Assembly (NCBI GenBank): GCA_011772475.1
Contig: WVZK01000062.1
Span: forward strand, 199-48,920
Source: Candidatus Aminicenantota bacterium
GTDB lineage: Bacteria; Acidobacteriota; Aminicenantia; Aminicenantales; Aminicenantaceae
DNA length: 48,722 bases
Reading direction: 5' to 3'
In this document: in pieces, positions 25,432-42,172 of the stretch
Numbering within the stretch: position 1 is the stretch's first letter
How the letters are laid out: each line of letters starts with the position of its first letter
The notes under the pieces: generated by a model
Seen by the model: the letters and a program-made list of their open reading frames with translations, nothing else
Told to the model about the DNA's origin: nothing
Databases searched by the model: none
Translations under genes and position numbers: made by a program

Positions 25432-26603
25432 CCTTTTCCCTCCTTATCAAGGAAATAAGCTCTAGCTCCTTCTCCTATTTTAACCTCATAAAATTCAGGG
25501 GAAGGAAACTTTCTTTTCCTGGCTTCTTCATGGAGCTTTTTCCTGAAAGCAGCTATTCCCTTTTGTTTGACCAGAGCAATCCCCGCTCCGCCAAAACCGG
25601 CCCCGGTGAGTCGGGCTCCAAAGCAGCCGGGAAATTCCCGGGCAGACTCATAAAATAAATCAAGCTCTGGACAGGAGACCTCATAATCATCCCTTAAGCT
25701 TTCATGAGAGCGGAATATGAGCTCGGCAAGGAGGCGAAAATCCTCCTTTCTCAAGGCTTCTACAGCCTTCTTTACCCTTCCGTTTTCACTCACGACGTGC
25801 CTGGCTCTTTTATAAAGCGCCTCATCCATTTCATCTTCTTTCTCTTCGAGCAAGCTCAAGGTTAGTTGCTTGTAGCTTTTAACTCCGTTTTTTTTAAAAA
25901 TCTCAAGCGCTTGAGAAGATTCATTCCGGCGCTTGTTGTAATCTGAAGAGGCCAATTCCCTGCTGACTCCACTCTCAAAAACAAGGATTCGGAGATCTTC
26001 TTTTTCCAGATTAACCGGGACTAGCTCATTCTCAAGAGTCTCACAATCCAAAAACACGGCCTTGTTTTTCTCGCCAAAAAATGAAGCAAACTGGTCCATT
26101 ATCCCGCACTGCACGCCAACAAAATCATTCTCTGCCTTCCTGGCCAACTCCGCCATTCTCTGGGGCACCAGACCAAGTTTGAAAAGTGAGTTTAATCCCT
26201 GAATTATGCTCACCTCAAGAGCCGCAGAGGAACTCAGACCTGCCTCAAGAGGAATATCACTCCAGATGAGGCCGTTTATCCCGCGAAGGTTCAACTCTTC
26301 TTCCTGAAGTGCCCAGAAAATGCCCTTGACATAATTGATCCATTTATTCTGCTCGGAGAAAGATATTTTTTGTAAAGAAAACATCTCTCTTTCTTTGAAA
26401 TTTTCTGTCCAGATGCAGACTGATTTATCGGTTCTTTTAGAGAGTAATAAATAATTCTTTAAGTTTATCGCTGCTGGCAAGACATAGCCTTGATTGTAAT
26501 CGGTGTGCTCTCCGATGATGTTTATCCGGCCCGGCGCAGAAGAAACTAACTCTGGATAAGAATTATGGATTTCTGCAAATACAAGGCTTAATGATTTTTC
26601 CAT
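25428..26603 (-). CDS. galK: Galactokinase
   Basis: The 391-residue GHMP kinase phosphorylates galactose at C1 to start the Leloir pathway. The galactokinase signature SAPGRINIIGEHTDYNQGYV lies near residue 22. The ATP-binding motif EAGLSSSAALEVS is near 130, CGIMDQFASFFG with the catalytic Asp near 170, and GARLTGAGFGGAGIAL near 345. The GEHTDYNxG motif distinguishes it from mevalonate and homoserine kinases. No galT or galE lies in the window. It is first in a two-gene unit with the secreted glycosidase. Confidence 0.93.
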   Translation of the reverse strand: MEKSLSLVFAEIHNSYPELVSSAPGRINIIGEHTDYNQGYVLPAAINLKNYLLLSKRTDKSVCIWTENFKEREMFSLQKISFSEQNKWINYVKGIFWALQEEELNLRGINGLIWSDIPLEAGLSSSAALEVSIIQGLNSLFKLGLVPQRMAELARKAENDFVGVQCGIMDQFASFFGEKNKAVFLDCETLENELVPVNLEKEDLRILVFESGVSRELASSDYNKRRNESSQALEIFKKNGVKSYKQLTLSLLEEKEDEMDEALYKRARHVVSENGRVKKAVEALRKEDFRLLAELIFRSHESLRDDYEVSCPELDLFYESAREFPGCFGARLTGAGFGGAGIALVKQKGIAAFRKKLHEEARKRKFPSPEFYEVKIGEGARAYFLDKEGKG

Positions 26604-28291: not shown

Positions 28292-28834
28292 TTAGGTCTC
28301 AACTTTTGACTTTTTAAGGAAAGATTCCCATCGCTTGATGTGGCCGTATTCATCGGCCTGGTCCTTTTCTATTATCTTTCGAGTGTCCGCATCCCATTCT
28401 ATTTTTCGCAGTAGCTCATCATAATGACGAACAGCTTTCTTCTCGACCCAAACACCAGTTCTAAGAATAGCTTTTGTGCCCAAAAGTCGCGAAAAGAATC
28501 CGAATTTGAAACCCACTATCCAGTACAACCACCTGAGCGTACTCGGTTTAAAACCGTATTCAAAAAGCTTAATTTGAAAATCTTGGAGATGCGTCATCTC
28601 GTTGGCCATAGCAGCAATAAGCTGAAGGTTGAGCTCACTCTCTTTTTTTGTGATCTGGAACTTGTAGATATTTACGGCCATGGTCTCTAGCGTATGCAGG
28701 GTCTGCAGTCCTTTCTTTATCCTTTTTAATCTATCCGAAGGCATATCCCGACCTCTCAGTTTAAAGTCTGTCTGGCTTATCTCAGGACGAATGATCGATG
28801 TATCAAAATCCTTTTTTTCCATCATTCTCACCAT
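28292..28834 (-). CDS. COQ7-like ferritin-fold di-iron protein
   Basis: The 180-residue protein has two pairs of iron-ligand helices in the COQ7 order: Glu in HTLETMAVNIYK, ExxH in NEMTHLQDF, Glu in WVEKKAVRHYDEL and ExxH in DEYGHIKRW. COQ7 enzymes hydroxylate 5-demethoxyubiquinol; related bacterial proteins are uncharacterised. No other quinone hydroxylase or ubi gene is adjacent, so the substrate is unknown. The first ATG (28834) lacks a ribosome-binding site; ATGs at 28825 and 28822 follow GGTGAG and may be the true start. Confidence 0.75.
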   Translation of the reverse strand: MVRMMEKKDFDTSIIRPEISQTDFKLRGRDMPSDRLKRIKKGLQTLHTLETMAVNIYKFQITKKESELNLQLIAAMANEMTHLQDFQIKLFEYGFKPSTLRWLYWIVGFKFGFFSRLLGTKAILRTGVWVEKKAVRHYDELLRKIEWDADTRKIIEKDQADEYGHIKRWESFLKKSKVET

Positions 28835-28870: not shown

Positions 28871-29626
28871 TCAAATCCAGCCCAGCTCGCTGAACTCAGG
28901 AAATCCAGAGCGGGATATTCCCCAGTAAGCAAAAAGAATTAGACTCAATAAATAGCCACTCATGAAAAAGAAAAGAAAGGGATTCTGATTGCCTTCTTTT
29001 TTTCTTTTAAAATAAAGGAGGAGAGCAAGAAGAAAACCTGCGCCAGCAGCGGGAAAAGTGAAAATTACTGTCTGTCCTTCAATCCCGTTGGCTGCAAATG
29101 TGAAGCCATAAAAAGTAGCTCCTAAGGAGAGAAAAACAAAATTTTTCCAGGTGAGAGATTTAAACGAGATTTTATAAGCAGCGATAATTAAAGCAACAGA
29201 AATCAGAAAAACTCCTCCATCCCATAAAAAATGGGAGATTATTTCATCAAAAAGATATGTAGCCTTATACAATTCTGACTCTTTCATGTGATGAAGAAGC
29301 CTAGCAATTGAATTGGAGGAAAGATGAAGCCCGTGACCATCCACAAAAAGCAGAAATCCGATGGCTAATAAGACCTTGGGCAAAACGTTTAAAACTCTGT
29401 TTGATGACTTTTGGGGCTGCAGGGAATGTGAAATCTTATAAGCCCGTGAATAAAGAATATAGGCTAAAGGGATGACCGCAAAAGGAGTTAAAAAATCAAG
29501 TGTATCTCCCCAGGTTAGAGGGCTCTTAAGAATGGTCTTGAGTAAGGGCGGCATTATATGAAAATAAGCAAAGAAAAAACCATAAGCAAGCAGCCAGAAA
29601 CAAAGAATATCCTTATCTTCTTCCAT
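28871..29626 (-). CDS. Polytopic membrane protein of unknown function
   Basis: The 251-residue protein has about seven or eight predicted membrane segments (for example LAYGFFFAYFHIMPPLL, VLLAIGFLLFVDG, NPFLFFFMSGYLLSLILFAY). Conserved-looking polar clusters sit at membrane edges: DGHGLHLSSNSIARLLHH near residue 97 and FDEIISHFLWDGG near 125. These His/Asp groups could bind metal, but no family was recognised. It lies 10 bases after the Omp85-like gene on the same strand, so the two are probably co-transcribed. Confidence 0.6.
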   Translation of the reverse strand: MEEDKDILCFWLLAYGFFFAYFHIMPPLLKTILKSPLTWGDTLDFLTPFAVIPLAYILYSRAYKISHSLQPQKSSNRVLNVLPKVLLAIGFLLFVDGHGLHLSSNSIARLLHHMKESELYKATYLFDEIISHFLWDGGVFLISVALIIAAYKISFKSLTWKNFVFLSLGATFYGFTFAANGIEGQTVIFTFPAAGAGFLLALLLYFKRKKEGNQNPFLFFFMSGYLLSLILFAYWGISRSGFPEFSELGWI

Positions 29627-29636
29627 CAGATCACTT

Positions 29637-30794
29637 TCAAAAGATGTGGCCGAAATTAAAATAAATTCCTAATCCTTCGTTACTAAAACCCATATCAAAC
29701 CTAACAACAAAGTTCTGAAGATAATACCTCAATCCTAAGCCAATATCAACAACAGCTTTATCGAGCTTTATCCCTGACCAGGATGGCCAGACGAGCCCTC
29801 CATCCATAAAAACGTTTCCTCCTAATTTCCTCCAGAGAGGAAAACGATATTCGGTATTGACCAAGAATTTTCCCTTATCTTGAAAACGATTTAGCCTGTA
29901 ACCTCTCATCGCCGCTATCTCGGAGCCTCCTCCAAGCACAGAGTACTCAAAAAGTGGAATCTTTTCGGTCTTCCCCGAAATTTTTTGAACAAGCGCGCGA
30001 AAAGCCAAAACATCTCTATTCCCGAAGAGTAGGAAGTACTTTCTAAAATCTAGAGTGAAGCGGTGGAAGCGAGCATTTTTATTTGCTAAAAGGCTAGATG
30101 CCACATCATTCTGGAAGATAAGACGAAATCCCTTTTTCGGGTGGATCTGGCTGTCTGAGGTATCATAGCGGACAACAAGGGAAAATAAGGGTGAAAACTG
30201 ATCTCCTATTTCTTCCAGCATTTCTGAAAAAGGTGCGCCTACTTCCACCTGATAATACTTGATATTCCTGAGGACATAACGAGCCTCCATCACAAAACGG
30301 GGAGTAAAACCTCTTCCAATCCTCAACTGGAGCTCCTTTTTTTCGTATGTAAATTCGGTCTCATCATCAGTATCAGAATCAGGCCCTGTACCGTAAAAAT
30401 AGTAATTTATATATTTATCGTATTCAGCTACGAAATCAAAAGAGAGTGAATATCTTTTACTCTGGCGAATTTCTATATCAGGAATAGAAAAAGCAAAGAT
30501 ATACCACCTCTCTCCTTTGCTTGAATTAAAAACAACCAAATCAAAGGATTCTCTCCAGGTGAGATAATTCACAAATTTTGCTCTTCCCCCATACCCAAGG
30601 CCAATGTCCGTGTCATACATCAGAATCGGAAAGGCACTGAAGGATTTTACCGTATCTAAATATTCATTTTCCTGGGCGGCGCAAGCGCCTTCAGGAGAGG
30701 AATTAGAACTTTCAGAGGAAGCATTAGCATTGTCGGTAATAAAGAGTGAAAAGAAAAATGTTATTAATAATGACGGGAGTAATCCTTTTGCCAT
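29637..30794 (-). CDS. Omp85/BamA-type outer-membrane beta-barrel protein without POTRA domains
   Basis: The 385-residue protein has a signal peptide (LLITFFFSLFITDNANA) followed mainly by alternating amphipathic strands. The strand patterns RYDTSDSQIHPKKGFRLIFQ near residue 200 and EIAAMRGYRLNRFQDKGKF near 290 are typical of the surface-antigen D15 barrel. The final residue is Phe (NFGHIF), the usual outer-membrane assembly signal. There is no room for POTRA domains, so it is a small single-barrel homologue, not BamA itself. It implies a diderm envelope. A strong AAAGGAGGGGAAA ribosome-binding site precedes the ATG. Confidence 0.82.
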   Translation of the reverse strand: MAKGLLPSLLITFFFSLFITDNANASSESSNSSPEGACAAQENEYLDTVKSFSAFPILMYDTDIGLGYGGRAKFVNYLTWRESFDLVVFNSSKGERWYIFAFSIPDIEIRQSKRYSLSFDFVAEYDKYINYYFYGTGPDSDTDDETEFTYEKKELQLRIGRGFTPRFVMEARYVLRNIKYYQVEVGAPFSEMLEEIGDQFSPLFSLVVRYDTSDSQIHPKKGFRLIFQNDVASSLLANKNARFHRFTLDFRKYFLLFGNRDVLAFRALVQKISGKTEKIPLFEYSVLGGGSEIAAMRGYRLNRFQDKGKFLVNTEYRFPLWRKLGGNVFMDGGLVWPSWSGIKLDKAVVDIGLGLRYYLQNFVVRFDMGFSNEGLGIYFNFGHIF

Positions 30795-30980: not shown

Positions 30981-32345
30981 CTATACAGAAATTGGGTACA
31001 CCTTTTTCTGAGCGTGGTCTCTCTGGAAAATAGACAGCTTAAAGAGAATAAAAGAGATTAATAGAGAATTAAATAACCACTTAAATATGTTCTTACCTGC
31101 TGACATGGTGGAGATGAACCGCCACCAACGTTTGAGAATGCTCTTCCGTGAATAGAAATATTTATTTATTCTACTGAAGGCTTCGAAGACTTCATCTGGA
31201 GTAACGCGTTTCGGTTTAAAGACAAGATGGTCGCCCTCATAATGAGATAAGTCCTTGTCAAATATGCGCCCTTCTGATTCTACTTGTTTATGGAATGGCG
31301 TTCCGGGAATCGGAATAGAAATTGAGAGGAGGATGGAGCTCGGGTCAATCTCATCAAGCTTCTTGGGCAGACTTTTATAATACGCAGGTGTATCCTCATC
31401 AAGTGCCAGCATCAAGCCTGTAAAAGTCAGAATCCCGCGCTTTTTAAGCTTTTCAAAAAGCTCCTGGTACTCCTCCACCTTATTCTGCTTCTTGTGGACA
31501 GATGAAAGGCTAGGTTCATTCAGAGACTCCAGTCCAATAAAAGCCATTGCACCGCGAGCCTTAACCAACAAGTCCACAAACTCATCGTCGTGGAGACAAT
31601 CAAAGCTAAACTGTGTTCCCAATCCCCAGAGCTTAATTTTCGCAATTTCTTTTAGAAGTTCCTTGGCGTAACCCAAATCGCCTCCGAGATTATTATCAAG
31701 AAGCATGGCCATTTTGCGTTTACGGAAAGGAAGCTTATCAGTGGCAGTTAGGTCACGAATCACATCCTCGATCGGTCGCAGGCGATACGGAGTGGGGTTG
31801 ATCGTCAGCTGACAAAAACTGCACCTGTACTTGCATCCGCGTGTTGCTTCAGTTACCACAGGAACTGCAAAGTCTGATTCAATTAAGTCATAGCGGGGTG
31901 GAGGGATGTTTTCCAAAGATGGTCCCACAGGAGCTTTATAAACCTTCTTCAGCTGGCCTTTCACCATATCTTCAACAACCTGAGGCCACACGGGTTCTGC
32001 CTCTCCCACGACCACCGAATCAAAATGGGGTATCACTTCTTCCGGAAATGTGGATGGATATCTTCCTCCTGCTACGACTATCTTCCCCAGCTTCCTAAAT
32101 TTTTTCGCCACTTCATATGCGTGCGGTGCACAGTAATCCATAAAGCTAAGACCAATGAAATCTGCATCTGTGCTGTAATCAATAGGACGAACCATCTCAT
32201 GGAGAAGGTCTACTTCAACTATAGGTGGAGTTAAACCCGCCACCAGGGCACCAGATAGTGGAGGAGCTGGAGAACGGGCAAAATAAGCCTGGTTCTCTCC
32301 AAGATTCTGAAAAAGGACGATTATCTGTAATTTTGGTTTACTCAT
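30981..32345 (-). CDS. B12-binding radical SAM enzyme
   Basis: The 454-residue class B radical SAM protein has an N-terminal cobalamin-binding-like domain (about 1-135, with DADFIGLSFMDYCAP and VVAGGRYPSTFPEEVIPH). The radical SAM core has CKYRCSFC (C171, C175, C178). A C-terminal hydrophobic segment (LLISFILFKLSIF) suggests membrane association, as in enzymes acting on lipids. Reaction and substrate are unknown; methyl transfer or cyclisation on a lipid is a reasonable guess. The start ATG 32345 has a perfect AAAAAGGAGG site that lies within the last codons of the upstream SDR gene, one base after its stop. Hence it is co-expressed with that SDR. Confidence 0.85.
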   Translation of the reverse strand: MSKPKLQIIVLFQNLGENQAYFARSPAPPLSGALVAGLTPPIVEVDLLHEMVRPIDYSTDADFIGLSFMDYCAPHAYEVAKKFRKLGKIVVAGGRYPSTFPEEVIPHFDSVVVGEAEPVWPQVVEDMVKGQLKKVYKAPVGPSLENIPPPRYDLIESDFAVPVVTEATRGCKYRCSFCQLTINPTPYRLRPIEDVIRDLTATDKLPFRKRKMAMLLDNNLGGDLGYAKELLKEIAKIKLWGLGTQFSFDCLHDDEFVDLLVKARGAMAFIGLESLNEPSLSSVHKKQNKVEEYQELFEKLKKRGILTFTGLMLALDEDTPAYYKSLPKKLDEIDPSSILLSISIPIPGTPFHKQVESEGRIFDKDLSHYEGDHLVFKPKRVTPDEVFEAFSRINKYFYSRKSILKRWWRFISTMSAGKNIFKWLFNSLLISFILFKLSIFQRDHAQKKVYPISV

Positions 32346-32346
32346 T

Positions 32347-33159
32347 TTATACCTCCTTTTTATCCGCAAGTTTATAAGCTATTCTTTGCATAGCTCCCTC
32401 AGCTAACCAGGGAATGAAAACTTTAGAAAATTTCAAGGCTTTGCCTTCAAGAGTGAGAACCAAATCCTGCCGTTCATTTTCAATTGCATTGACTATAGAT
32501 CTTGCCACTTTTTTGGCTGGAACATAGCGACCTGCGGGTCGACGGGCGCCACCCACTTTCTTCTCAACCCTGAAAAAGTTTGTCTGAGTATATCCTGGAT
32601 AGACAATCATTATAGAGATACCACTCGTTGCCAGCTCAGCTCGAAGACTCTGGCTTAGAGCTACAAGAGCGGCTTTACTCGCGCAGTAAGCTCCCATGTA
32701 GGGAACACCATGCATTGCTGCCACAGAAGCGATGTTGATAATTAATCCCCCTCCTGTCTTTTTCATATGGGGCAGGACTTCCAAAATAAGATTAACAGAG
32801 CCAAAAAAATTTACTTCCATTACTGAGCGAAAGTCGTCTAATGCAGTCATTTCAGCTTTGCCATAAACTCCTATGCCTGCATTGTTTATCAGTATGTCGA
32901 TGCCGCCAAGATGGTCCACACACTTTTTAACAAGCTTGATAGCATCTTCCCTATCTGAGACATCGCAGGGTATTAAAAGGGGAGCCTGGACATCAGGAAA
33001 AGCATCCTTTATCTCATCAGACACTTTTCTCAGAGTCTTTAGTCTGCGGGCTGTTAACGCCAAAATGGCTCCCCTCTTGGCCAATTCAATGCACGTAGCT
33101 CTGCCGATGCCAGACGATCCCCCTGTTACGAGGACTCTTGAACCTTCTATTTTTGCCAT
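32347..33159 (-). CDS. Short-chain dehydrogenase/reductase (unit 1)
   Basis: The 270-residue classical SDR has the cofactor motif TGGSSGIGRATC near residue 13, NNAGIGVYGK near 92, the catalytic Ser in INIASVAAMHG near 145 and YCASKAA (Tyr and Lys) near 160. An Arg after the second strand (LTARRLKTL) favours NADPH. The C-terminal part (WLAEGAMQRIAYKLA) resembles SDRs acting on lipids or steroids. It is first in a two-gene unit with the radical SAM enzyme, and its upstream region carries the phased hexamer array at 33255-33293. Confidence 0.88.
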   Translation of the reverse strand: MAKIEGSRVLVTGGSSGIGRATCIELAKRGAILALTARRLKTLRKVSDEIKDAFPDVQAPLLIPCDVSDREDAIKLVKKCVDHLGGIDILINNAGIGVYGKAEMTALDDFRSVMEVNFFGSVNLILEVLPHMKKTGGGLIINIASVAAMHGVPYMGAYCASKAALVALSQSLRAELATSGISIMIVYPGYTQTNFFRVEKKVGGARRPAGRYVPAKKVARSIVNAIENERQDLVLTLEGKALKFSKVFIPWLAEGAMQRIAYKLADKKEV

Positions 33160-33221: not shown

Positions 33222-33320
33222 TCACTGATAATATAGCCCCCCAGAATTATAAGTTGTCAAAAAGTTGTTAAGAGTTTGTTAAAAGTGTGTTAAAAAAGGC
33301 AGGAATATAAGAAAATGAGG
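33222..33320 (-). promoter_or_regulatory. Regulatory block A: four hexamers phased at 11 bp
   Basis: On the minus strand three TTAACA hexamers and one TTGACA occur as 33293-33288, 33282-33277, 33271-33266 and 33260-33255, exactly 11 bp apart. The TTGACA may be a -35; TATATT lies 19 bases beyond (33235-33230), a long spacer typical of regulated promoters. The block starts 96 bases upstream of the SDR ATG at 33159. A near-duplicate block lies at 37829-37929. Confidence 0.8.
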
Positions 33321-33338
33321 ATTACTGTACCTATATTT

Positions 33339-33764
33339 TCAATGTGTTCTATTCTTCCATAGCGTAACAATAAGAAAAATCCCTCCACTGAGACACAGCA
33401 AATTTATGAAAATATTCATAACAGCCTCTCCTACTCCAAGGAGATAGATTCCATTTTGAGTGTTAAAAGAAACATCCAGAAGCCCGAGAAATATAAGCGA
33501 ACTCCCTCCCAAAAGGGAAAATAAAAAGCCAAAAGGCGCCCTCTTAAACAAGCCAACTCCCCCGATAATCAATACTATAGCTAGAGATATATCAGCTACA
33601 GGAAAAGCTGATTCGAAGGCCATATAGATTTCCTCTAAGTGCGGATCACCTATTTTCACTAAATCCGCTGAAAAGAAGGCAATCCAAAAGGCAATTATTC
33701 CCACAGCTATTGCCAATTCCATAAAGGCAGCAATTCTTACTGATTTCGTATATTTAATATCCAT
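33339..33764 (-). CDS. Small four-helix membrane protein, unknown function
   Basis: The 141-residue protein has four predicted membrane helices (AAFMELAIAVGIIAFWIAFF, ISLAIVLIIGGVGLF, FLFSLLGGSSLIFLGLLDVSF, AVMNIFINLLCLSGGIFLIV). The loop after helix 1 is acidic. No motif identifying a family was recognised. It is last in the unit that starts with the lipid kinase at 37789, 58 bases after the SDR gene, so it probably belongs to the same lipid-linked pathway. Confidence 0.65.
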   Translation of the reverse strand: MDIKYTKSVRIAAFMELAIAVGIIAFWIAFFSADLVKIGDPHLEEIYMAFESAFPVADISLAIVLIIGGVGLFKRAPFGFLFSLLGGSSLIFLGLLDVSFNTQNGIYLLGVGEAVMNIFINLLCLSGGIFLIVTLWKNRTH

Positions 33765-33822
33765 TCTCTTTTATATCCATAAGGTTTAATAGGCCAGTAA
33801 TCCCTGGCCTACATTTAAGTCT

Positions 33823-34653
33823 TTATTTGCTAGGTTCTTTTTTCGCTTCCCTTCTTTTTTTTATTGTGCTTCTCCCCATTTTCTCCATGATGGGGAGAAG
33901 AAAGAAAAAAATCTTGGGAAAAGCTACTCCGATTCTGCATAAAATTCCCATGCTGGTGGGGATCATCACTTCTGGCTTTTTTTTACGAACAGCTTTGAGT
34001 ATTCCTTTTGCGGCCTGTTCAGGCTTTAAAGGCTTCCCTAGAAAAGAGAGAACAGCACTATCGAATAAAAGCTCATAATCATGTTGTGCAGTATCCACAG
34101 AATCGGGACAAACCACGGTAACTCCAACCGGAGTGCGGCGCAATTCTGCGTGGAGTGAAAGTGAATAGCCTCGAATAGCGTATTTTGTAGCGCTATAGAC
34201 CGCTTCACCTGGCAATGGGACGACACCCCCTAACGATGCAACATTGACAATCTTTCCAAAATTCTGAGGTTTCATAATACCTAGAGCGGCTCGACATCCA
34301 TGAATTGTTCCGGAGAGGTTTACCGAAAGTTGGCTTTGGACTTCATCCAAAGTAATCTTCTCCGCGGCACCAGGCTGAACGACTCCTGCATTATTAATAA
34401 GAATATCAACCTTGCCGTACTTTTGTCTGACTTTTTCCATGAGCGATTGCCATGATTCGGGGTCTGCGACATCATGTTCGACGAGCATTGTTTCCGCTCC
34501 CGAATCCTTCAAAAATGCCCCTAAATCCTCTAGCCCCTCTTTGTGGATATCGGTCAAAATTAAAATGGCACCATGCTTGGCAAAAAGATGCGCTGTAGCT
34601 GAACCGATGCCACCAGCAGCACCAGTTATAATTACCACTTTATCCTTGAGCAT
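33823..34653 (-). CDS. Short-chain dehydrogenase/reductase (unit 2)
   Basis: The 276-residue classical SDR has ITGAAGGIGSATA near residue 10, NNAGVVQPG near 88, the Ser of VNVASLGGVVP near 140 and YSATKYAIRGYS near 155. An Asp after the second strand (LILTDIHKEG) favours NAD. The C-terminus is basic with a short hydrophobic stretch (IFFFLLPIM), consistent with membrane contact. The GGAGGAATAATTTC ribosome-binding region precedes ATG 34653. It differs from the SDR at 32347 in cofactor signature, so the two likely catalyse different steps. Confidence 0.87.
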   Translation of the reverse strand: MLKDKVVIITGAAGGIGSATAHLFAKHGAILILTDIHKEGLEDLGAFLKDSGAETMLVEHDVADPESWQSLMEKVRQKYGKVDILINNAGVVQPGAAEKITLDEVQSQLSVNLSGTIHGCRAALGIMKPQNFGKIVNVASLGGVVPLPGEAVYSATKYAIRGYSLSLHAELRRTPVGVTVVCPDSVDTAQHDYELLFDSAVLSFLGKPLKPEQAAKGILKAVRKKKPEVMIPTSMGILCRIGVAFPKIFFFLLPIMEKMGRSTIKKRREAKKEPSK

Positions 34654-34693
34654 GAAATTATTCCTCCGCTTATCTTGAATTCATAAATAAGGA

Positions 34694-35740
34694 TTATCCT
34701 ATCTCAACCTTTTGGGCAATTTCCAGTAATTTATTTACGTAATTTTTTGGATCAGAGCCTGCTATCTCTGAGATATTCCTGATCGAAGCCGTATCAACAG
34801 GAACTAATCGTCCTTTGCTCCTGATTCTTACCCCTTCTCCCTCGGTAATCTCACCTAATAAGATTGGAGTCCAGTCAGCTTTAGCCGCTTCCTGGAGGAA
34901 GTTTTTTTCATTATCATGACTCAACGTAAAGCACAGCTCAAATTCCCCATGAACCGCGGCCAGAGTCAGCCACAGCGGCAAATTTTGAGCACTGAACACT
35001 TTTAAGGCGATCGGATGCAAAACTTGGTCCCAATTATCTTCCAGGACAAACTGGCAACTATTCAACCTCATAAGGGTATCTACTGTATGAATCACACCAT
35101 CGCTCGTATCCATGCAGGAGCTTGCAAATTTCCTGATTATTTTTCCTTCTTTTATCCTGGCCAGAGGTTGATAGAATGGCTTTGGCAGCATAGAATCCTG
35201 CTTGGTTAACCGCAAAAAAGCATAGACGCTCCCTAAACCAGCAGGATGCGTAATATATAATTTATCTGCCGGCTTTGCTCCGATTCTTTTTATGACCGAT
35301 TTTTGCGGAACAAGTCCTGCTGCGCAGCCAGAGAGGAACAATTCTTTTCCCTGGTTTGTATCTCCGCCCAGAACAAAGGTGTTTAGCTGCTGGCACGCAT
35401 CAGAAACCCCCTCTGTCAGCTTTGTCATAAAGGCGGCATTCAATTCTGGAGGATAACTAATTGATATGAGCAGACCTAGAGGATCTGCTCCAACCGCGGC
35501 TAAATCCGAAAAATTTACCGTGGCCAGCATCCATCCTATAAGATAAGGATCATCGTACAATCCGCTCGTAATTTCTTCAACCAAAGCATCTGTGGTAATT
35601 GCCAGGTAATTATCACTCCCGCTTGCTATATCGATTAATTCCGCATCTGTTTCATGAATTTCATGAATTTTATGGGGAGCTTTGCGAAAATTCTTGGCAA
35701 TTCTTTCAATCATTAAGTTTTCTAAAATATCTTTCATCAT
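34694..35740 (-). CDS. ThiL/AIR-synthase-related ATP-binding protein
   Basis: The 348-residue protein of the PurM-like fold resembles thiamine-monophosphate kinase. Segments are LAITTDALVEE near residue 47 (ThiL TTDxLVEG), WMLATVNFSDLAAVGADPLG near 70, VLGGDTNQGKELFLSG near 122 and the ATP/Mg motif MDTSDGVIHTVD near 210. Spacing follows ThiL, but the context is a lipid/prenyl cluster, not thiamine synthesis. It may phosphorylate another alcohol phosphate or act in a different ATP-dependent reaction. True thiamine-monophosphate kinase cannot be excluded. GAGGTGAG precedes the double ATG. Confidence 0.75.
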   Translation of the reverse strand: MMKDILENLMIERIAKNFRKAPHKIHEIHETDAELIDIASGSDNYLAITTDALVEEITSGLYDDPYLIGWMLATVNFSDLAAVGADPLGLLISISYPPELNAAFMTKLTEGVSDACQQLNTFVLGGDTNQGKELFLSGCAAGLVPQKSVIKRIGAKPADKLYITHPAGLGSVYAFLRLTKQDSMLPKPFYQPLARIKEGKIIRKFASSCMDTSDGVIHTVDTLMRLNSCQFVLEDNWDQVLHPIALKVFSAQNLPLWLTLAAVHGEFELCFTLSHDNEKNFLQEAAKADWTPILLGEITEGEGVRIRSKGRLVPVDTASIRNISEIAGSDPKNYVNKLLEIAQKVEIG

Positions 35741-35786
35741 TGGCTCACCTCAAGATACTCATAAAAATTTGAGAATATTTTTTGTC

Positions 35787-36770
35787 TCACACCTGTGTTT
35801 TTTCAGGTCTAAATTTCAAAGCTAGCTCAAACAAAAAATAGAAAAAGACGATAAAAACCAGCCAATGGATCTTCAGAGTAATGACAATTGCGGCACAGTA
35901 AAGAATGAACGAACGAACAACGTTGGCTATTGGACTATGAGCTTTTTTTTCATCTCGAGTCTGATGTATCTTTACCTGAGCATAAGCATTAATCACCAGG
36001 GCAGCAACAAAAATAACGACACCAAAAATGTTAAGAGTGCCGATTGAAAGCATTGCCCAACCCGTGAGAATAGCCGCTGAGATGGCAACAAGATCACTGT
36101 AAACAGCAGCTGGCACCCATCCAAAAACAACAGGGAAAGTCCTGTATCCAGTCTTTTTATCTGCTGATATGTCCTTGAAATAGCCCATCACCACAAAATT
36201 GGCATAGCCAAAGAAAATTGCAAGCACCGCCAAAAAGAAAGCAAAAGAAGGAGAGTCCTCTAAGTTAAGGATTTGTCTGACACTATACTCTCTATCCACC
36301 AGCCGTCCCATAACAGGCAACAAAGCCACTATCCAGGAATTCCACAGCGGGCCTCCCCACCATGTTCTCTTTAATGTCGTATAGCTTAGCAAGCCGACAA
36401 CTGCCAAAACTCCAAAAACTAAGATTACAGGATTCAAATATGTCAGAATTAATATGGCTAAGGTTAATCCTACAAGGCTCACGCATAAAACTTGCTTGCG
36501 TGAAATTACTCCTCTTATAAGGGGACGATAAGGGGAGGAAAGGGCATCGGTATCCATCTGGAAACAATCTGTAAGGGCCTGTCCTAACCCATAGGATAAA
36601 AACAAAGGAATAAAACCCAAGAAGATCCTGAAAATTCTTGAATCCTCAATGAACGAAAGCCCAACCAAACCTGCAGCTCCTGAGACAAAAATCAGATAAG
36701 GTCTCATTGTTAACCAAAAAGCTTTCCAAAAAGCTATGCTAAAGATGCTTGCGTACCGATTCTTAGCCAT
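35787..36770 (-). CDS. UbiA-family prenyltransferase
   Basis: The 327-residue membrane protein has about eight or nine helices. The first Asp-rich motif is TDCFQMDTDALSSPYRPLIR near residue 65 (family form NDxxDxxxD...P.RP), and the second is YFKDISADKKTGYRTFPVVF near 205. UbiA enzymes move a prenyl group onto an aromatic, tetrapyrrole or glycerol-phosphate acceptor. The DxxADKxTGxRTFPV form resembles chlorophyll-synthase and DGGGP-synthase-like branches more than UbiA/MenA. Placement between a lipid kinase and an SDR suggests a lipid or isoprenoid product. The acceptor is unknown. Confidence 0.85.
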   Translation of the reverse strand: MAKNRYASIFSIAFWKAFWLTMRPYLIFVSGAAGLVGLSFIEDSRIFRIFLGFIPLFLSYGLGQALTDCFQMDTDALSSPYRPLIRGVISRKQVLCVSLVGLTLAILILTYLNPVILVFGVLAVVGLLSYTTLKRTWWGGPLWNSWIVALLPVMGRLVDREYSVRQILNLEDSPSFAFFLAVLAIFFGYANFVVMGYFKDISADKKTGYRTFPVVFGWVPAAVYSDLVAISAAILTGWAMLSIGTLNIFGVVIFVAALVINAYAQVKIHQTRDEKKAHSPIANVVRSFILYCAAIVITLKIHWLVFIVFFYFLFELALKFRPEKTQV

Positions 36771-36859
36771 GATGTGTCCCTAGGGTAAGGAATTTACGTT
36801 TTTGAATTTTACTCATATTCCCCTTATCAAATGCAACTAGTTTCCTAAAGCATGCTTCA

Positions 36860-37789
36860 TCATTGGCTTATTTTTAATGTCCCCTGAAGCAATTTTATCT
36901 TGATTCTCCGTGCAAGATAGACCTCTCCGTCAAGTTCCAAAGGAGTTGGAAAATCCGGTTTAATCTCGACTTCCCTGGCCATCCAAGATCGAGTTTTTGG
37001 TAAGCCCGTGAACTTCCCGCGAGTTAAAGCGATAATTGTTTTTAGTCTAGCGAGTATACCCATCCTTTCACAAAGACCAACACCCAGGTAATCACTCTGA
37101 GAACTAATGTTGAAATCGTAGCAGAAATTACCGCTGACATGAGGATTGATAACCGCACTCAAGCTGGTGACTTCTGTAGAAATCTTTCTATTCTCGACTT
37201 TTATCTTTGCTGGAACATTTTTTGCAGCAAACAGTGTCCTTAGAGCGGCATACCAGATGGTTCCCATCACCCACTTAGATTTCATCCACTTTATAACTTT
37301 ATCTTTCGAATTAAACAAATAATTGGCTTTAGCAATTATTCCGATACTGCAATTGATGATAAAATATTTTCTGTTCCATCTCCCGTTCTTATCCTCGTAG
37401 TCAACCTGTCCTACGTTATGATTTGCGGCATTTTCATAATCAAGTTTTAACGGAACTTTATTATTGAGATATTTGTCTTCAGAGAGAGGCTTATGAAAAT
37501 CATTGCTTGAACCTAAGCCTATAGCTCCCAAGGTCAACTGACTTCTCTTTTCTTTTTTCAGTTGCATTATTTGATTCAATAAAAAATTTATTGTCCCATC
37601 TCCGCCAACGCCAATTAATACTCGTTCTCCTCTATCAAACTCGCTCGGCAGCCTTTTGCTGAAATCTTCAAAATCAGAAATTAGAGTATAATTTCCTCTA
37701 AAATATTTGCCTTCAAGTTCGGATTTATACTCCTCCCACTTTTTAACACATTTACCGCCGTTTGAATACTTGTTTAAAAGTACGATCAT
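36860..37789 (-). CDS. Diacylglycerol kinase-family lipid kinase
   Basis: The 309-residue protein has the DAGK catalytic fold. The nucleotide motif is IGVGGDGTINFLLNQI near residue 60, with LGAIGLGSSNDFHKP near 88 in place of the usual G-T-G-N-D. The C-terminal PLELDGEVYLARRI near 285 holds the D-G-E motif. Such enzymes phosphorylate diacylglycerol, sphingoid bases or related lipids at the membrane. No membrane helix is evident. It is first in the unit lipid kinase-UbiA-ThiL-like-SDR-membrane protein. GGAGCAAGAAA precedes its ATG, and the phased array at 37864-37902 lies 75 bases upstream. Confidence 0.87.
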   Translation of the reverse strand: MIVLLNKYSNGGKCVKKWEEYKSELEGKYFRGNYTLISDFEDFSKRLPSEFDRGERVLIGVGGDGTINFLLNQIMQLKKEKRSQLTLGAIGLGSSNDFHKPLSEDKYLNNKVPLKLDYENAANHNVGQVDYEDKNGRWNRKYFIINCSIGIIAKANYLFNSKDKVIKWMKSKWVMGTIWYAALRTLFAAKNVPAKIKVENRKISTEVTSLSAVINPHVSGNFCYDFNISSQSDYLGVGLCERMGILARLKTIIALTRGKFTGLPKTRSWMAREVEIKPDFPTPLELDGEVYLARRIKIKLLQGTLKISQ

Positions 37790-37828
37790 TTTCTTGCTCC
37801 TTTTTTTCAGTTCTCAATTTATCCACTT

Positions 37829-37929
37829 TTCATTGATAATTTAGCTCCCCTAAGGGCAGAAGTTGTCAAAAATTTGTTAAGAGATTGTTAAAAGTTTGTT
37901 AAAAAAGGCAAGATTATTGAAAAGTGAGG
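37829..37929 (-). promoter_or_regulatory. Regulatory block B: four hexamers phased at 11 bp
   Basis: On the minus strand TTAACA at 37902-37897, 37891-37886 and 37880-37875 and TTGACA at 37869-37864 are exactly 11 bp apart. A -10-like TAAATT follows (37843-37838) after a 20-base gap. Sequence similarity to block A (33222-33320) runs from CCTCA through TTATCAATGA. It lies between the response-regulator gene and the lipid-kinase gene. Confidence 0.8.
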
Positions 37930-38016: not shown

Positions 38017-38700
38017 TTATTTTTGAAACTTGTAGCCAGACCAGGGAACTGTGATTAGATGAGCAGGCTTAGCCGGACTACTCTCGATTTTTTGTCTAAG
38101 GTGATGGATAAAAGTATCGATTGTCCTTGTGGTCGGAAATTTGTCATACCCCCATACCTCATTAAGAATAGTTTCCCGGCTAACAACTTCTCCTTCACAA
38201 GAAATAAGAAGCTTAAGAAGACCGAATTCCTTAGCAGTAAGGTAAAGCTCTTTCTTTCCCTTAGATGCAATCTGCTTTTTAAAATTTATGTAAACATCAC
38301 CAAAAGTGTATTCTTCAATTTCTGCTGCTTCGGGTTTAGTGCGGCGAAGCACAGCATTTATCCTTGCTAGAAGCTCTTTTGTTCCAATAGGCTTGATGAG
38401 ATAATCATCCGCTCCAAGCTCCAAACCCAAGACCTTGTCGATCTCCTCCTTTTTCTCGCCTGTAAGCATGATTATAGGTGTGATTATCCCTTTTGCTCTA
38501 AGCCGCTTGCATATTTCCAGCCCACTTAATGAGGGAAGTGTAAAATCGAGAAGAACAAGGTCAATTTTTTCCTGACAGGCCAATCGAAACCCTTCTTCTC
38601 CATCACCAGAAGATACAACCTTAAAGTTTTCTGATTCCAGGAAAGATTTAAAGGTTTCAAGCAGAGCTTTATCATCTTCGACGATTAATATTTTTTTCAT
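38017..38700 (-). CDS. OmpR/PhoB-family response regulator
   Basis: The 227-residue two-domain regulator has a receiver domain (1-120) with IVEDDKAL acidic residues, the phospho-acceptor Asp52 in LVLLDFTLPS, Thr in IIMLTGEKKEE and Lys in DDYLIKPIG. The winged-helix domain (130-227) has LTAKEFGLLKLL and RTIDTFIHHLRQKIE (recognition helix). OmpR-family proteins bind direct repeats, commonly with 10-11-bp spacing, which fits the arrays at 33255-33293 and 37864-37902. That link is inference. Its ATG overlaps the kinase stop (ATGA). Confidence 0.93.
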   Translation of the reverse strand: MKKILIVEDDKALLETFKSFLESENFKVVSSGDGEEGFRLACQEKIDLVLLDFTLPSLSGLEICKRLRAKGIITPIIMLTGEKKEEIDKVLGLELGADDYLIKPIGTKELLARINAVLRRTKPEAAEIEEYTFGDVYINFKKQIASKGKKELYLTAKEFGLLKLLISCEGEVVSRETILNEVWGYDKFPTTRTIDTFIHHLRQKIESSPAKPAHLITVPWSGYKFQK

Positions 38701-41081
38701 GGCTTTGAAAAGACAAGACTAAAAGTGCTGCCCTTATGCTGTTGACTCATGACTTCAACCTCTCCTTTATGAGCTTCCATGATATGTTTGACAATCTTCA
38801 ATCCCAGTCCAACTCCTTTTGGACTATGCCGGCTCGCTTCAGCGTGCCTATAAAAACCCTCAAAAATCTTTTCTATCTCTCCGGTTGGAATTCCAATTCC
38901 TTTATCTTCAACCTGAATTTCTACCTGTTTTTCCTTCTCGACGACTTGAATCTTTATATCCTTTTTATCTGACGAATATTTAATAGCATTATCTATGAGA
39001 TTGGTCAATGCCTGTTTTACAGCATCCTTATCTATTTCTAAAAAAAGAGGATCCCCAGGTAAATTTGTCTTGAGAACAAATCCATCTGATTCCAACCTGT
39101 ACTGGAAAAGCTTCGTTGTTTCTCTAACAACTGACTGAATTTCTTCTTTCTGAAAATTATAGGTTTTTGCCTGTTGTTCAATTTTTCCAAAATCGAGGAT
39201 GTTATGAAGGAACCGGGAAAGACGGCCGCTTTCATCAGCTACAAGGCTTATGAGCTCATCCTGTTTTGCTTTGTCTTTTATCTTTCCTGCCTGGAGCACT
39301 TCGGCCAGTCCTCTGATAGAACTCATCGGTGTCCGGAGCTCGTGGGATACGGAGGAGACAAATTCAGTTTTAAGACGATTAAGTTCATCCAATTTTTCTC
39401 TCTCTGCCCTTTCTTCAAAGACTTCTTCCTGAAGTCTGATTCTCTCCAGGTTTAAAGCCAGCTCTTGGGACATTGTTAATAAAAGCTCAAGGTCATCCCG
39501 AGTATATCTTTCTCCAGATTTTTTCTTTCCCATTAAGATATAACCAGTCATAGCGGCCATCCTGAAAGAAAGAGGGATAATTAACTCTAGATTTTTTTCT
39601 TCAAGGAAGGACTCTTTCGAAAAATCCACACTTTCTTCTGTGCGGACCGCCTTTTTTCTGGCTAATATCTTTTCTGAATAGAGACTGAGAGAAGTCATAG
39701 AGGCAAGGTCCTCTTTTCCATTTTTGGCAATAAATAGCTTCCTTTTTCCGGAAACGAATAGATAGATAAACACTCCGATATGCTCCATCGGCAAAGTTTT
39801 CTTTATCTTTAAAAGGAAAAAATCAGTTAGATGGTCACTGCTTGCCATCTTATGAGCGCTTTCGTTGAAACTGAGAATACTCTTTCTGTAGTCATAACTC
39901 ATGCGGAAAAACGCTTTATCTACAAATGCTTGAATTTTTTTCCGTGCGGGATTAAAGGCAGCAGCAGCCACAAGAGCTCCTATCAAGGAGACAGTCGTTT
40001 CTCGAGCAGAAAAGAATTTAGAAAAAATATTACCAAGCAGATAAACAGAAAAGAGATATATGCTGACGGTGAAAACTGTGAGTATGGAATAGACAATGCT
40101 TCGATTGATAACAAGTTCTATGTTCATCAATTTAAACCTAACAATGGAAAAGGCGAAGGCTAGAGGGATAAAGATAAAAAAAGCGTTGGAAAATTCCTGT
40201 GACATTAAGGGGTCAATTCCTACAGCCAGGGGAAGCTGGTATAACAGAATAAACGGGGCCAGGCCAATAAAAAGGCCATAAAAAATCCATTTTATCTGAG
40301 CCTTCTCCTCCTCAAGGACAGCTTTCCTGTAGCTCCTAATCAGATATAACATGGCTGCAAGGACAATCAAGACAAGATATCCACGAAAGACATAAAAAGC
40401 GGATTCGTAGATCCGATGGGCCTCTATTGAAGAATTCAAACCCGACTGAAGAAACGTAGTCTCTAGGATTCCTATAAAAATCAGAGCTGGAAAATAAATA
40501 AGGAGCTTGCTTATCTTGAGCTTTCTCTTTGAAAATGAAAGAGAAAAATGAAGCAGAAGAGCAGCAGCCAAAGGATAGCAAAGATAGTATAAAACTCCAG
40601 GGATGTACGATAGCCAGTCTTTTCTTAAGCAGTAGAATCCTCCGCTTATGATGACAGCCGAGGCGAAAGAAAAAGATGCCCAATAATAGATGCGCGCTCT
40701 TATATCTTCTGCGCGGAGAAGAAAAACCACGATGGCGATAATGAAGCAGAAAATGCCTATTAAGAGATAAATTAAAGGAAAAAAACTCCGAGAATAGTAG
40801 TAAACAAATTTGGCTTCTTTTTTCTCTATCTTGCCGTCGATTTCGATAACGAAAGTTGATTGTTCACCGAAGGTTTTCTGGCTCAGGATGAATTCCATGT
40901 CCATTTTTCGTTCAATCCTTATGTCATCTACCTGAACGAGCTTTGCATCTTTCTTTTGAATGAAATCTTTTATTTCAAGAGGAAGACCGCGGCGCTGGCG
41001 AAGCAAAGAAAATCCATAGACACTTATGAGGATGATGAAAAATCCAGCGGTAAGAGAAAGCAAAAACGGGATTTTTTTCAT
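38697..41081 (-). CDS. Membrane sensor histidine kinase
   Basis: The 794-residue kinase has an N-terminal membrane anchor and a short extracytoplasmic region (about 30-100), then about eight membrane helices (105-360). A GAF-like domain spans about 390-550, followed by a coiled linker. The HisKA domain has VSSVSHELRTPMSSIRG (His580) and the HATPase domain has the N-box LTNLIDNAIKYS, then VEDKGIGIP and GVGLGLKIVKHIMEAH. All kinase boxes are present. The signal is unknown; the multi-helix sensor may read a membrane or lipid state. It is coupled to its cognate response regulator and lies upstream of the array-controlled lipid genes. Confidence 0.92.
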   Translation of the reverse strand: MKKIPFLLSLTAGFFIILISVYGFSLLRQRRGLPLEIKDFIQKKDAKLVQVDDIRIERKMDMEFILSQKTFGEQSTFVIEIDGKIEKKEAKFVYYYSRSFFPLIYLLIGIFCFIIAIVVFLLRAEDIRARIYYWASFSFASAVIISGGFYCLRKDWLSYIPGVLYYLCYPLAAALLLHFSLSFSKRKLKISKLLIYFPALIFIGILETTFLQSGLNSSIEAHRIYESAFYVFRGYLVLIVLAAMLYLIRSYRKAVLEEEKAQIKWIFYGLFIGLAPFILLYQLPLAVGIDPLMSQEFSNAFFIFIPLAFAFSIVRFKLMNIELVINRSIVYSILTVFTVSIYLFSVYLLGNIFSKFFSARETTVSLIGALVAAAAFNPARKKIQAFVDKAFFRMSYDYRKSILSFNESAHKMASSDHLTDFFLLKIKKTLPMEHIGVFIYLFVSGKRKLFIAKNGKEDLASMTSLSLYSEKILARKKAVRTEESVDFSKESFLEEKNLELIIPLSFRMAAMTGYILMGKKKSGERYTRDDLELLLTMSQELALNLERIRLQEEVFEERAEREKLDELNRLKTEFVSSVSHELRTPMSSIRGLAEVLQAGKIKDKAKQDELISLVADESGRLSRFLHNILDFGKIEQQAKTYNFQKEEIQSVVRETTKLFQYRLESDGFVLKTNLPGDPLFLEIDKDAVKQALTNLIDNAIKYSSDKKDIKIQVVEKEKQVEIQVEDKGIGIPTGEIEKIFEGFYRHAEASRHSPKGVGLGLKIVKHIMEAHKGEVEVMSQQHKGSTFSLVFSKP

Positions 41082-41459: not shown

Positions 41460-41747
41460 ATGAGGTCACTACGTGTTGGCATTCGCGAAGCTAAGATAAA
41501 TCTTAGCAAGCTGCTAAAAAATGTCCAAAAAGGCAAGGAAATTATATTAACCGATCGAGGCAAACCTGTAGGCAAGATTGTTCCTATGCCCGCAGATTCT
41601 CTGCCTTTAGCTGAACGCATTTATGAACTTGAAAGGCAGGGCTGGGTTGAGCCTCGAAAAAAGAAGACGATGAAAAAACTCCTTATTCCCATTCCAATTC
41701 CGGATGAACTTGCCCAGAAATTCCTCCAGGAGGATAGAAATCAATGA
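41460..41747 (+). CDS. Phd/YefM-family antitoxin
   Basis: The 95-residue protein has the Phd N-terminal DNA-binding fold: RVGIREAKINLSKLLKNVQK near residue 5 and EIILTDRGKPVGKIVPM near 25. The C-terminal part (about 60-95) is basic then acidic and would wrap the toxin. AAAGGTGAAGAAATT precedes ATG 41460. It overlaps the PIN toxin gene by 4 bases (ATGA), the usual antitoxin-first arrangement. The operator upstream suggests autoregulation. Confidence 0.87.
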   Translation: MRSLRVGIREAKINLSKLLKNVQKGKEIILTDRGKPVGKIVPMPADSLPLAERIYELERQGWVEPRKKKTMKKLLIPIPIPDELAQKFLQEDRNQ

Positions 41748-42172
41748 CGAAAATAGTTCCTGTCGCTGTTTATTGGGACTCCTCAAGTGTTCTTTCTGTC
41801 CTCTTCGAAGATTCCCACAGTAAAGAGGCTTTGAGCTGGTTCAGAAAAGATGGAGTCCATCTAATCTCAACTTTAGGCTATACCGAGGTTTGTGCAGTGA
41901 TATCCCGGATTAAAAGAGAAAAGCTTGTAGCTGATATTCTAATAGATGTGGCGTTTAGGGCATTGAAGACAGGGCCATGGAGGCATCTAAATATCTGGCC
42001 AGAATGGGAAAAGCTCAGGGCCTTTTCTCAGAAATGGTCATTAAGAGGTACGCACCTCTGGCACTTAGCCACGGCAAAAGCACTTCAAAATCAGATCCCT
42101 GAATTGAAAATATTAACTTTTGACAACAGGCTAGGGATTGCCGCTAAAGGAGAAGGATTACTGGCTAAATGA
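41744..42172 (+). CDS. PIN-domain toxin (VapC-like)
   Basis: The 142-residue PIN domain belongs to the VapC RNase family. Acidic residues are Asp12 in VYWDSSSVL, Glu48 in GYTEVCAV and Asp127 in ILTFDNRLG. The third conserved acid, normally in R-x-x-D-A-L-H-L-A-T-A, is replaced by His104 (RGTHLWHLATA). Metal binding and RNase activity may therefore be weakened. VapC proteins usually cut tRNA or rRNA to stop growth. It is coupled to the antitoxin gene. Confidence 0.85.
   Translation: MTKIVPVAVYWDSSSVLSVLFEDSHSKEALSWFRKDGVHLISTLGYTEVCAVISRIKREKLVADILIDVAFRALKTGPWRHLNIWPEWEKLRAFSQKWSLRGTHLWHLATAKALQNQIPELKILTFDNRLGIAAKGEGLLAK

Follow-up and report, generated by a model that had tools for sequence, protein, structure and literature searches.

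Two operator-like blocks in a lipid/envelope gene cluster

A 48,722-nucleotide stretch of contig WVZK01000062.1 (hereafter the window), part of an Aminicenantes metagenome-assembled genome of 3.14 Mb (204 contigs, 88 % complete), was analysed for two promoter blocks, both on the minus strand, that stand next to a two-component system. The operator-like part of block 1 (33255–33293) consists of four half-sites in 11-bp phase, TTAACA-N5-TTAACA-N5-TTAACA-N5-TTGACA, with TTAACA at 33293–33288, 33282–33277 and 33271–33266 and TTGACA at 33260–33255. The -10 hexamer TATATT (33230–33235) follows 19 bases past TTGACA, in a column that is conserved as TAnATT. Block 2 (37864–37902) carries the same four half-sites in the same phase (TTAACA at 37902–37897, 37891–37886 and 37880–37875, TTGACA at 37869–37864) and the -10 hexamer TAAATT (37838–37843) 20 bases past TTGACA. 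Genes on the same strand lie downstream, an SDR oxidoreductase 95 bp past block 1 and a lipid kinase 74 bp past block 2. A preceding sequence-only reading had described these hexamers with their exact 11-bp steps, the two -10 spacings and the direction of the genes, and all of this was reproduced exactly. Block 2 is located between the gene of an OmpR/PhoB-family response regulator (38017–38700, minus strand; 227 aa, Pfam domains Response_reg and Trans_reg_C) and the first half of a predicted lipid/envelope cluster, while block 1 opens the second half. The gene of the presumed partner, a membrane histidine kinase (38697–41081, minus strand; 794 aa, HisKA, HATPase_c and a weak GAF match), overlaps the regulator gene by 4 bp. 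Judged from the sequence comparisons below, each block is probably an operator-promoter of this regulator, which is predicted to bind there and to activate the lipid and envelope genes.

With up to two mismatches, the three-box pattern matched the window only at blocks 1 and 2 and never in 100 dinucleotide shuffles, and about 2e-6 four-box matches are expected in the whole 3.14-Mb genome from a base-composition estimate. A scan of the window with up to four mismatches revealed no third array, and none upstream of the histidine kinase gene. The blocks agree in 36 of 39 positions of the array and in 22 of the 30 positions upstream of it. Since the likeness extends beyond the array, a duplication within the cluster is plausible. 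Although the flanks are common to both blocks, pure local duplication was rejected as an explanation because unrelated promoters carry the array as well.

The array and its promoter across Aminicenantales

The four-box pattern followed by ACTT, searched with up to three mismatches, occurred at eight sites in the own genome; the reversed-pattern control gave no match there, nor in any other genome scanned. Of 60 related genomes, 20 carried the exact three-box pattern. When 297 genomes from across the phylum were sampled, matches outside the order were confined to five genomes with one or two sites each and are apparently sporadic. The array is a genome-wide motif and not private to blocks 1 and 2. 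An absence from related clusters or a random placement, which the sequence-only reading had named as observations that would speak against it, was not encountered: arrays recur at orthologous clusters and upstream of genes. A three-box version on contig C139 of the own genome precedes the gene of a lumazine-binding-like protein. The gene that ends 66 bp before this array (L023:74-3220, plus strand) codes for a 1048-aa Ser/Thr kinase with a zinc ribbon and TPR repeats. Five hexamers of the TTAACA/TTAATA type at 11-bp steps with A-rich spacers on contig C163 (L021:1236-1285) were set aside as an operator because they lack the ACTT and a -10 hexamer and the neighbouring gene runs the other way; this is probably a simple tandem repeat.

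The consensus of 44 non-redundant arrays, a set that includes two overlapping registers of the C163 repeat, was TTAACAAACTT-TTAACAAACTC-TTAACAactTT-TTGACAACTTT, then TAnATT. In 36 of the 44 arrays the TAnATT -10 hexamer stood exactly 20 bases past box 4. Box 4 differed from the other boxes at the third base, which was G in 30 of 44 arrays versus 22 of 132 instances of boxes 1 to 3 (p 5e-10). This difference is what would be expected if box 4 served both as half-site and as -35 element, and the suggestion that TTGACA doubles as the -35 is supported by it. A gene start was found within 250 bp downstream in the same direction for 34 of 36 testable arrays; the opposite direction gave 15 of 36. This contrast is the useful measure, as the corresponding figure for random positions (63 %) is inflated by starts accepted inside genes. 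The earlier proposal of a regulated promoter with an operator of 11-bp direct repeats was right.

The neighbouring regulator as candidate binder

Which protein binds the array had been left undecided by the sequence-only reading. The choice is now narrowed, as co-occurrence and synteny point to the neighbouring OmpR/PhoB-family regulator. This is a winged-helix protein encoded together with a histidine kinase, and the array presents direct hexamer repeats about one helical turn apart in 44 instances. The distribution of the array follows the regulator across genomes. Counted within the GTDB family and with orthologues accepted at 66 % identity or more, 14 genomes had both array and regulator, three only the array, one only the regulator and 19 neither (Fisher p 1.5e-6). 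Inclusion of a regulator fragment at a contig edge in genome G001 changed the counts to 15/2/1/19 (Fisher p 2e-7). In many relatives the distance from the regulator gene to an array downstream is 26 to about 240 bp, compared with about 115 bp in the own genome; such arrangements were found at L120, L121, L122, L125, L128, L129, L130 and L153 and in G025. In a Saccharicenans pair (L139/L140) the array at this place has drifted to TTGACA-type boxes. The gene that follows the regulator-linked array varies and may code for the lipid kinase, a UbiA-family protein, a serine palmitoyltransferase-like enzyme or an Omp85 protein. The pattern of regulator and array spans many genera, and the synteny is a line of evidence independent of the co-occurrence. 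The regulator group shows hardly any variation in TTRTxDTFxxxLRxKxE, the stretch of the putative recognition helix.

Several observations weigh against this assignment. Related genomes are not independent samples, thus the Fisher p-values overstate the evidence. Arrays were present in G004 and G035, two incomplete assemblies in which no regulator orthologue was detected, and G009 had the regulator and no array, on a contig that stops 300 bp past the gene. Several regulator orthologues from other families of the order showed no recognisable array in their vicinity.

A binding of the arrays by the second OmpR-family regulator of the genome, encoded on contig C164, or by several paralogues appears very unlikely. 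The C164 protein belongs to the same class and is 51 % identical to the window regulator, but its orthologues (at least 68 % identity) do not track the arrays: they were present in three of 17 array genomes and in four of 20 genomes without arrays (p 0.72). The C164 protein was rejected as binder on this distribution. G003 and G013 also lack an orthologue of it. In G013, which has at least six arrays, the window-regulator orthologue was the single OmpR-type regulator to reach E<=1e-30, and in G003 the sole other OmpR-type match is a receiver-kinase fusion.

Such fusions were observed between the kinase and regulator genes of some relatives. A protein of about 900 aa is encoded there at L122:472-3174 (plus strand), similar ones in L127 and L129, and a split version in L130. 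In L122, the only case in which the domains were tested, it combines a receiver domain with a Ser/Thr protein kinase and TPR repeats. The receiver domain resembles that of the regulator itself, and in G003 it is 86 % identical to the window regulator. The window is free of this receiver-Ser/Thr kinase-TPR protein.

The letters of the array also fit the operator of CarH/LitR, a MerR-family B12 photoreceptor that represses in the dark as a tetramer on 11-bp direct repeats over the -35. CarH repeats follow nnnnTnnACAn and occur in tandem rows of three or four; one repeat of the row contains the -35 TTGACA (PMC9304148). TTAACA and TTGACA both match TnnACA, and the tandem 11-bp TnnACA repeats of the blocks cover the -35 as in the operators of Thermus, Bacillus megaterium and Myxococcales. 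What distinguishes the present case is the missing protein, since no fusion of MerR and B12 domains was found in the array-bearing genomes checked, a strong but, given their incompleteness, not absolute negative. The only MerR protein of the own genome is a 136-aa open frame. The listed MerR frames of the array-bearing G001, G003, G008, G013, G022, G027 and G032 have 119–161 aa, thus are too short for a MerR domain plus B12 module, and none is listed for G026. B12-binding_2 frames of 125–248 aa, the size of corrinoid proteins, occur in seven array genomes; there is no overlap between them and the listed MerR matches. Moreover, no carotenoid or photolyase gene was among the target genes examined. 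CarH/LitR as binder is largely refuted and must be regarded as extremely unlikely. Of the proposed CarH match, the agreement with the published repeat stands; the array-bearing genomes that were examined contain no candidate gene for the protein.

As a third possibility, the regulator might be PhoB in function, with the array as a phosphate-starvation operator and the downstream genes as a Pho regulon that includes lipid remodelling. Bacillus PhoP and enterobacterial PhoB belong to the same protein class, and their Pho boxes are likewise 11-bp direct repeats, several per promoter, over the -35. The resemblance of letters and phase to the Bacillus PhoP boxes goes back to the sequence-only reading and was not confirmed by literature searches. 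TTAACA reads in the same orientation to transcription as in PhoP-activated promoters of Bacillus. The closest solved relative of the regulator by profile is RegX3, which is linked to phosphate in mycobacteria, and a 5'-nucleotidase-like protein, judged by eye, is encoded behind an array in G026. On the curated PhoB model the regulator reached 186.6 bits, but this is far below the cut-off of 296.2 and slightly below its YycF and MtrA scores. No PstB above cut-off was found in the own genome, where the best match lies inside an operon for Mla-type lipid transport (MlaE/MlaD). No Pst transport genes were found under the same boxes, and neither a phosphate transporter nor PhoU was among the targets examined. 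Membership in a classical Pho regulon was rejected on these grounds, and a Pho operator in the functional sense is improbable.

Another close likeness is that to WalR/YycF (VicR), with the consensus TGTWAH-N5-TGTWAH. Both are direct hexamer repeats in 11-bp phase, and TTAACA-N5-TTAACA contains, as its reverse complement, two TGTWAH half-sites (TGTTAA) 5 bp apart. Among the NCBIfam models the regulator scores highest on YycF, and the targets are of the envelope type. However, the published consensus has two half-sites, whereas four and a fixed -10 are present here, and TTAACA instead of TGTTAA reads in the direction of transcription. The regulator scored 192.2 bits against a YycF cut-off of 340, and the partner kinase was below the WalK cut-off. 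The regulator is taken to work like the PhoB/WalR type and is filed neither as PhoB nor as WalR.

For an activation by the neighbouring regulator the following course is proposed. The membrane histidine kinase would activate the regulator by phosphorylation, and the phosphorylated regulator would occupy the four half-sites, which share one face of the DNA and extend from about -71 to -33. Four half-sites suggest two dimers in head-to-tail arrangement. The last half-site, TTGACA, would overlap the -35 element. With 20 bp between -35 and -10 in place of the usual 17, the promoter is predicted to be weak alone and to depend on the regulator, which argues for activation, presumably by recruitment of RNA polymerase through the bound regulator. 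Blocks 1 and 2 would each drive one half of the lipid/envelope cluster, and the other copies mostly exported or envelope proteins. The same regulator on the same operator could also repress by blocking the -35, with one phosphorylation state releasing it, a reading that shares the binder and differs in sign only. The overlap of box 4 with a good TTGACA -35 speaks for repression and against activation. On the other side, a promoter with 20-bp spacing should have little basal activity and need help, and a repressor would not require a fixed suboptimal spacing; repression is considered unlikely. Altogether, the observation of the sequence-only reading was confirmed and its interpretation supported in part.

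Predicted regulon and envelope-lipid programme

Along the minus strand, histidine kinase, regulator and block 2 are followed by the genes of a DAGK_cat/YegS-like lipid kinase (36860–37789), a UbiA-family prenyltransferase (35787–36770), an AIRS/ThiL-like kinase (34694–35740), an SDR oxidoreductase (33823–34653; a 3-ketodihydrosphingosine reductase model was among many SDR matches) and a 141-aa protein with no family match (33339–33764). Past block 1 come a second SDR oxidoreductase (32347–33159), a B12-binding/radical SAM protein (30981–32369), an outer-membrane protein of the Omp85 superfamily (29637–30794), a 251-aa protein with no Pfam match (28871–29626) and a COQ7-like protein (28292–28834), which ends the run. 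Relatives of the block-1 SDR follow an array in G001, G013 and G022, and look-alikes of the Omp85 protein, recognised by position and N-terminal sequence, come directly after an array in G008, G016 and G027. Outside this run, the window holds a Phd/YefM antitoxin and PIN-domain toxin pair (41460–42172, plus strand), which is encoded on the opposite strand close upstream of the histidine kinase gene, and a predicted glycoside hydrolase (MGH1-like) that adjoins a galactokinase-like GHMP kinase (22852–26603, minus strand).

Besides blocks 1 and 2, the arrays of the own genome precede genes for a carbamoyltransferase, a beta-helix protein, a 315-aa protein whose N-terminus resembles a signal sequence and three proteins that carry the motif ERRGA close to the N-terminus (two on contig C127, one on C89). 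This ERRGA family (K/ERRGAxLxIxxxDGxxIxGEL, signal-peptide-like) is uncharacterised and recurs behind arrays in several genera (L019:5833-6186, L019:12706-13239, L179, L106, L113, L057, L110, L112, L115); the one full-length member tested had no Pfam match. Recurrent first genes past arrays were those of the lipid kinase, UbiA, the block-1 SDR, Omp85, carbamoyltransferases, an epimerase, the ERRGA family and a serine palmitoyltransferase-like enzyme. The latter comes first past an array in G003, G016 and G032; its best NCBIfam score is that for SerpalmtaseCFB, 413 bits, below the cut-off of 640. The serine palmitoyltransferase-like genes of the own genome (C103) have no array upstream.

From their predicted functions, the recurrent targets look like an envelope and lipid programme. 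A wider reading, possible rather than probable, is that of an envelope-lipid switch of the Aminicenantales, in which one two-component system would govern a lineage-specific membrane-lipid pathway and its outer-membrane partners. Candidate members of the pathway, equally tentative, are the serine palmitoyltransferase-like enzyme, SDR, lipid kinase, UbiA, ThiL-like kinase and COQ7-like protein. The same reading includes cross-talk with Ser/Thr kinases in some species, as suggested by the receiver-Ser/Thr kinase fusion inserted between kinase and regulator genes. The switch is of a known type, while the regulator, the operator and the lineage-specific regulon appear undescribed; a search of a partial literature coverage for Aminicenantes combined with two-component systems or sphingolipids retrieved nothing relevant.

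As this case illustrates, co-occurrence and synteny make it possible to attribute a row of 11-bp TnnACA repeats that resembles a CarH operator to a response regulator. The operator may also tag a group of uncharacterised envelope genes. For the uncultured Aminicenantes, this provides a predicted regulator, operator and regulon that are testable in vitro.

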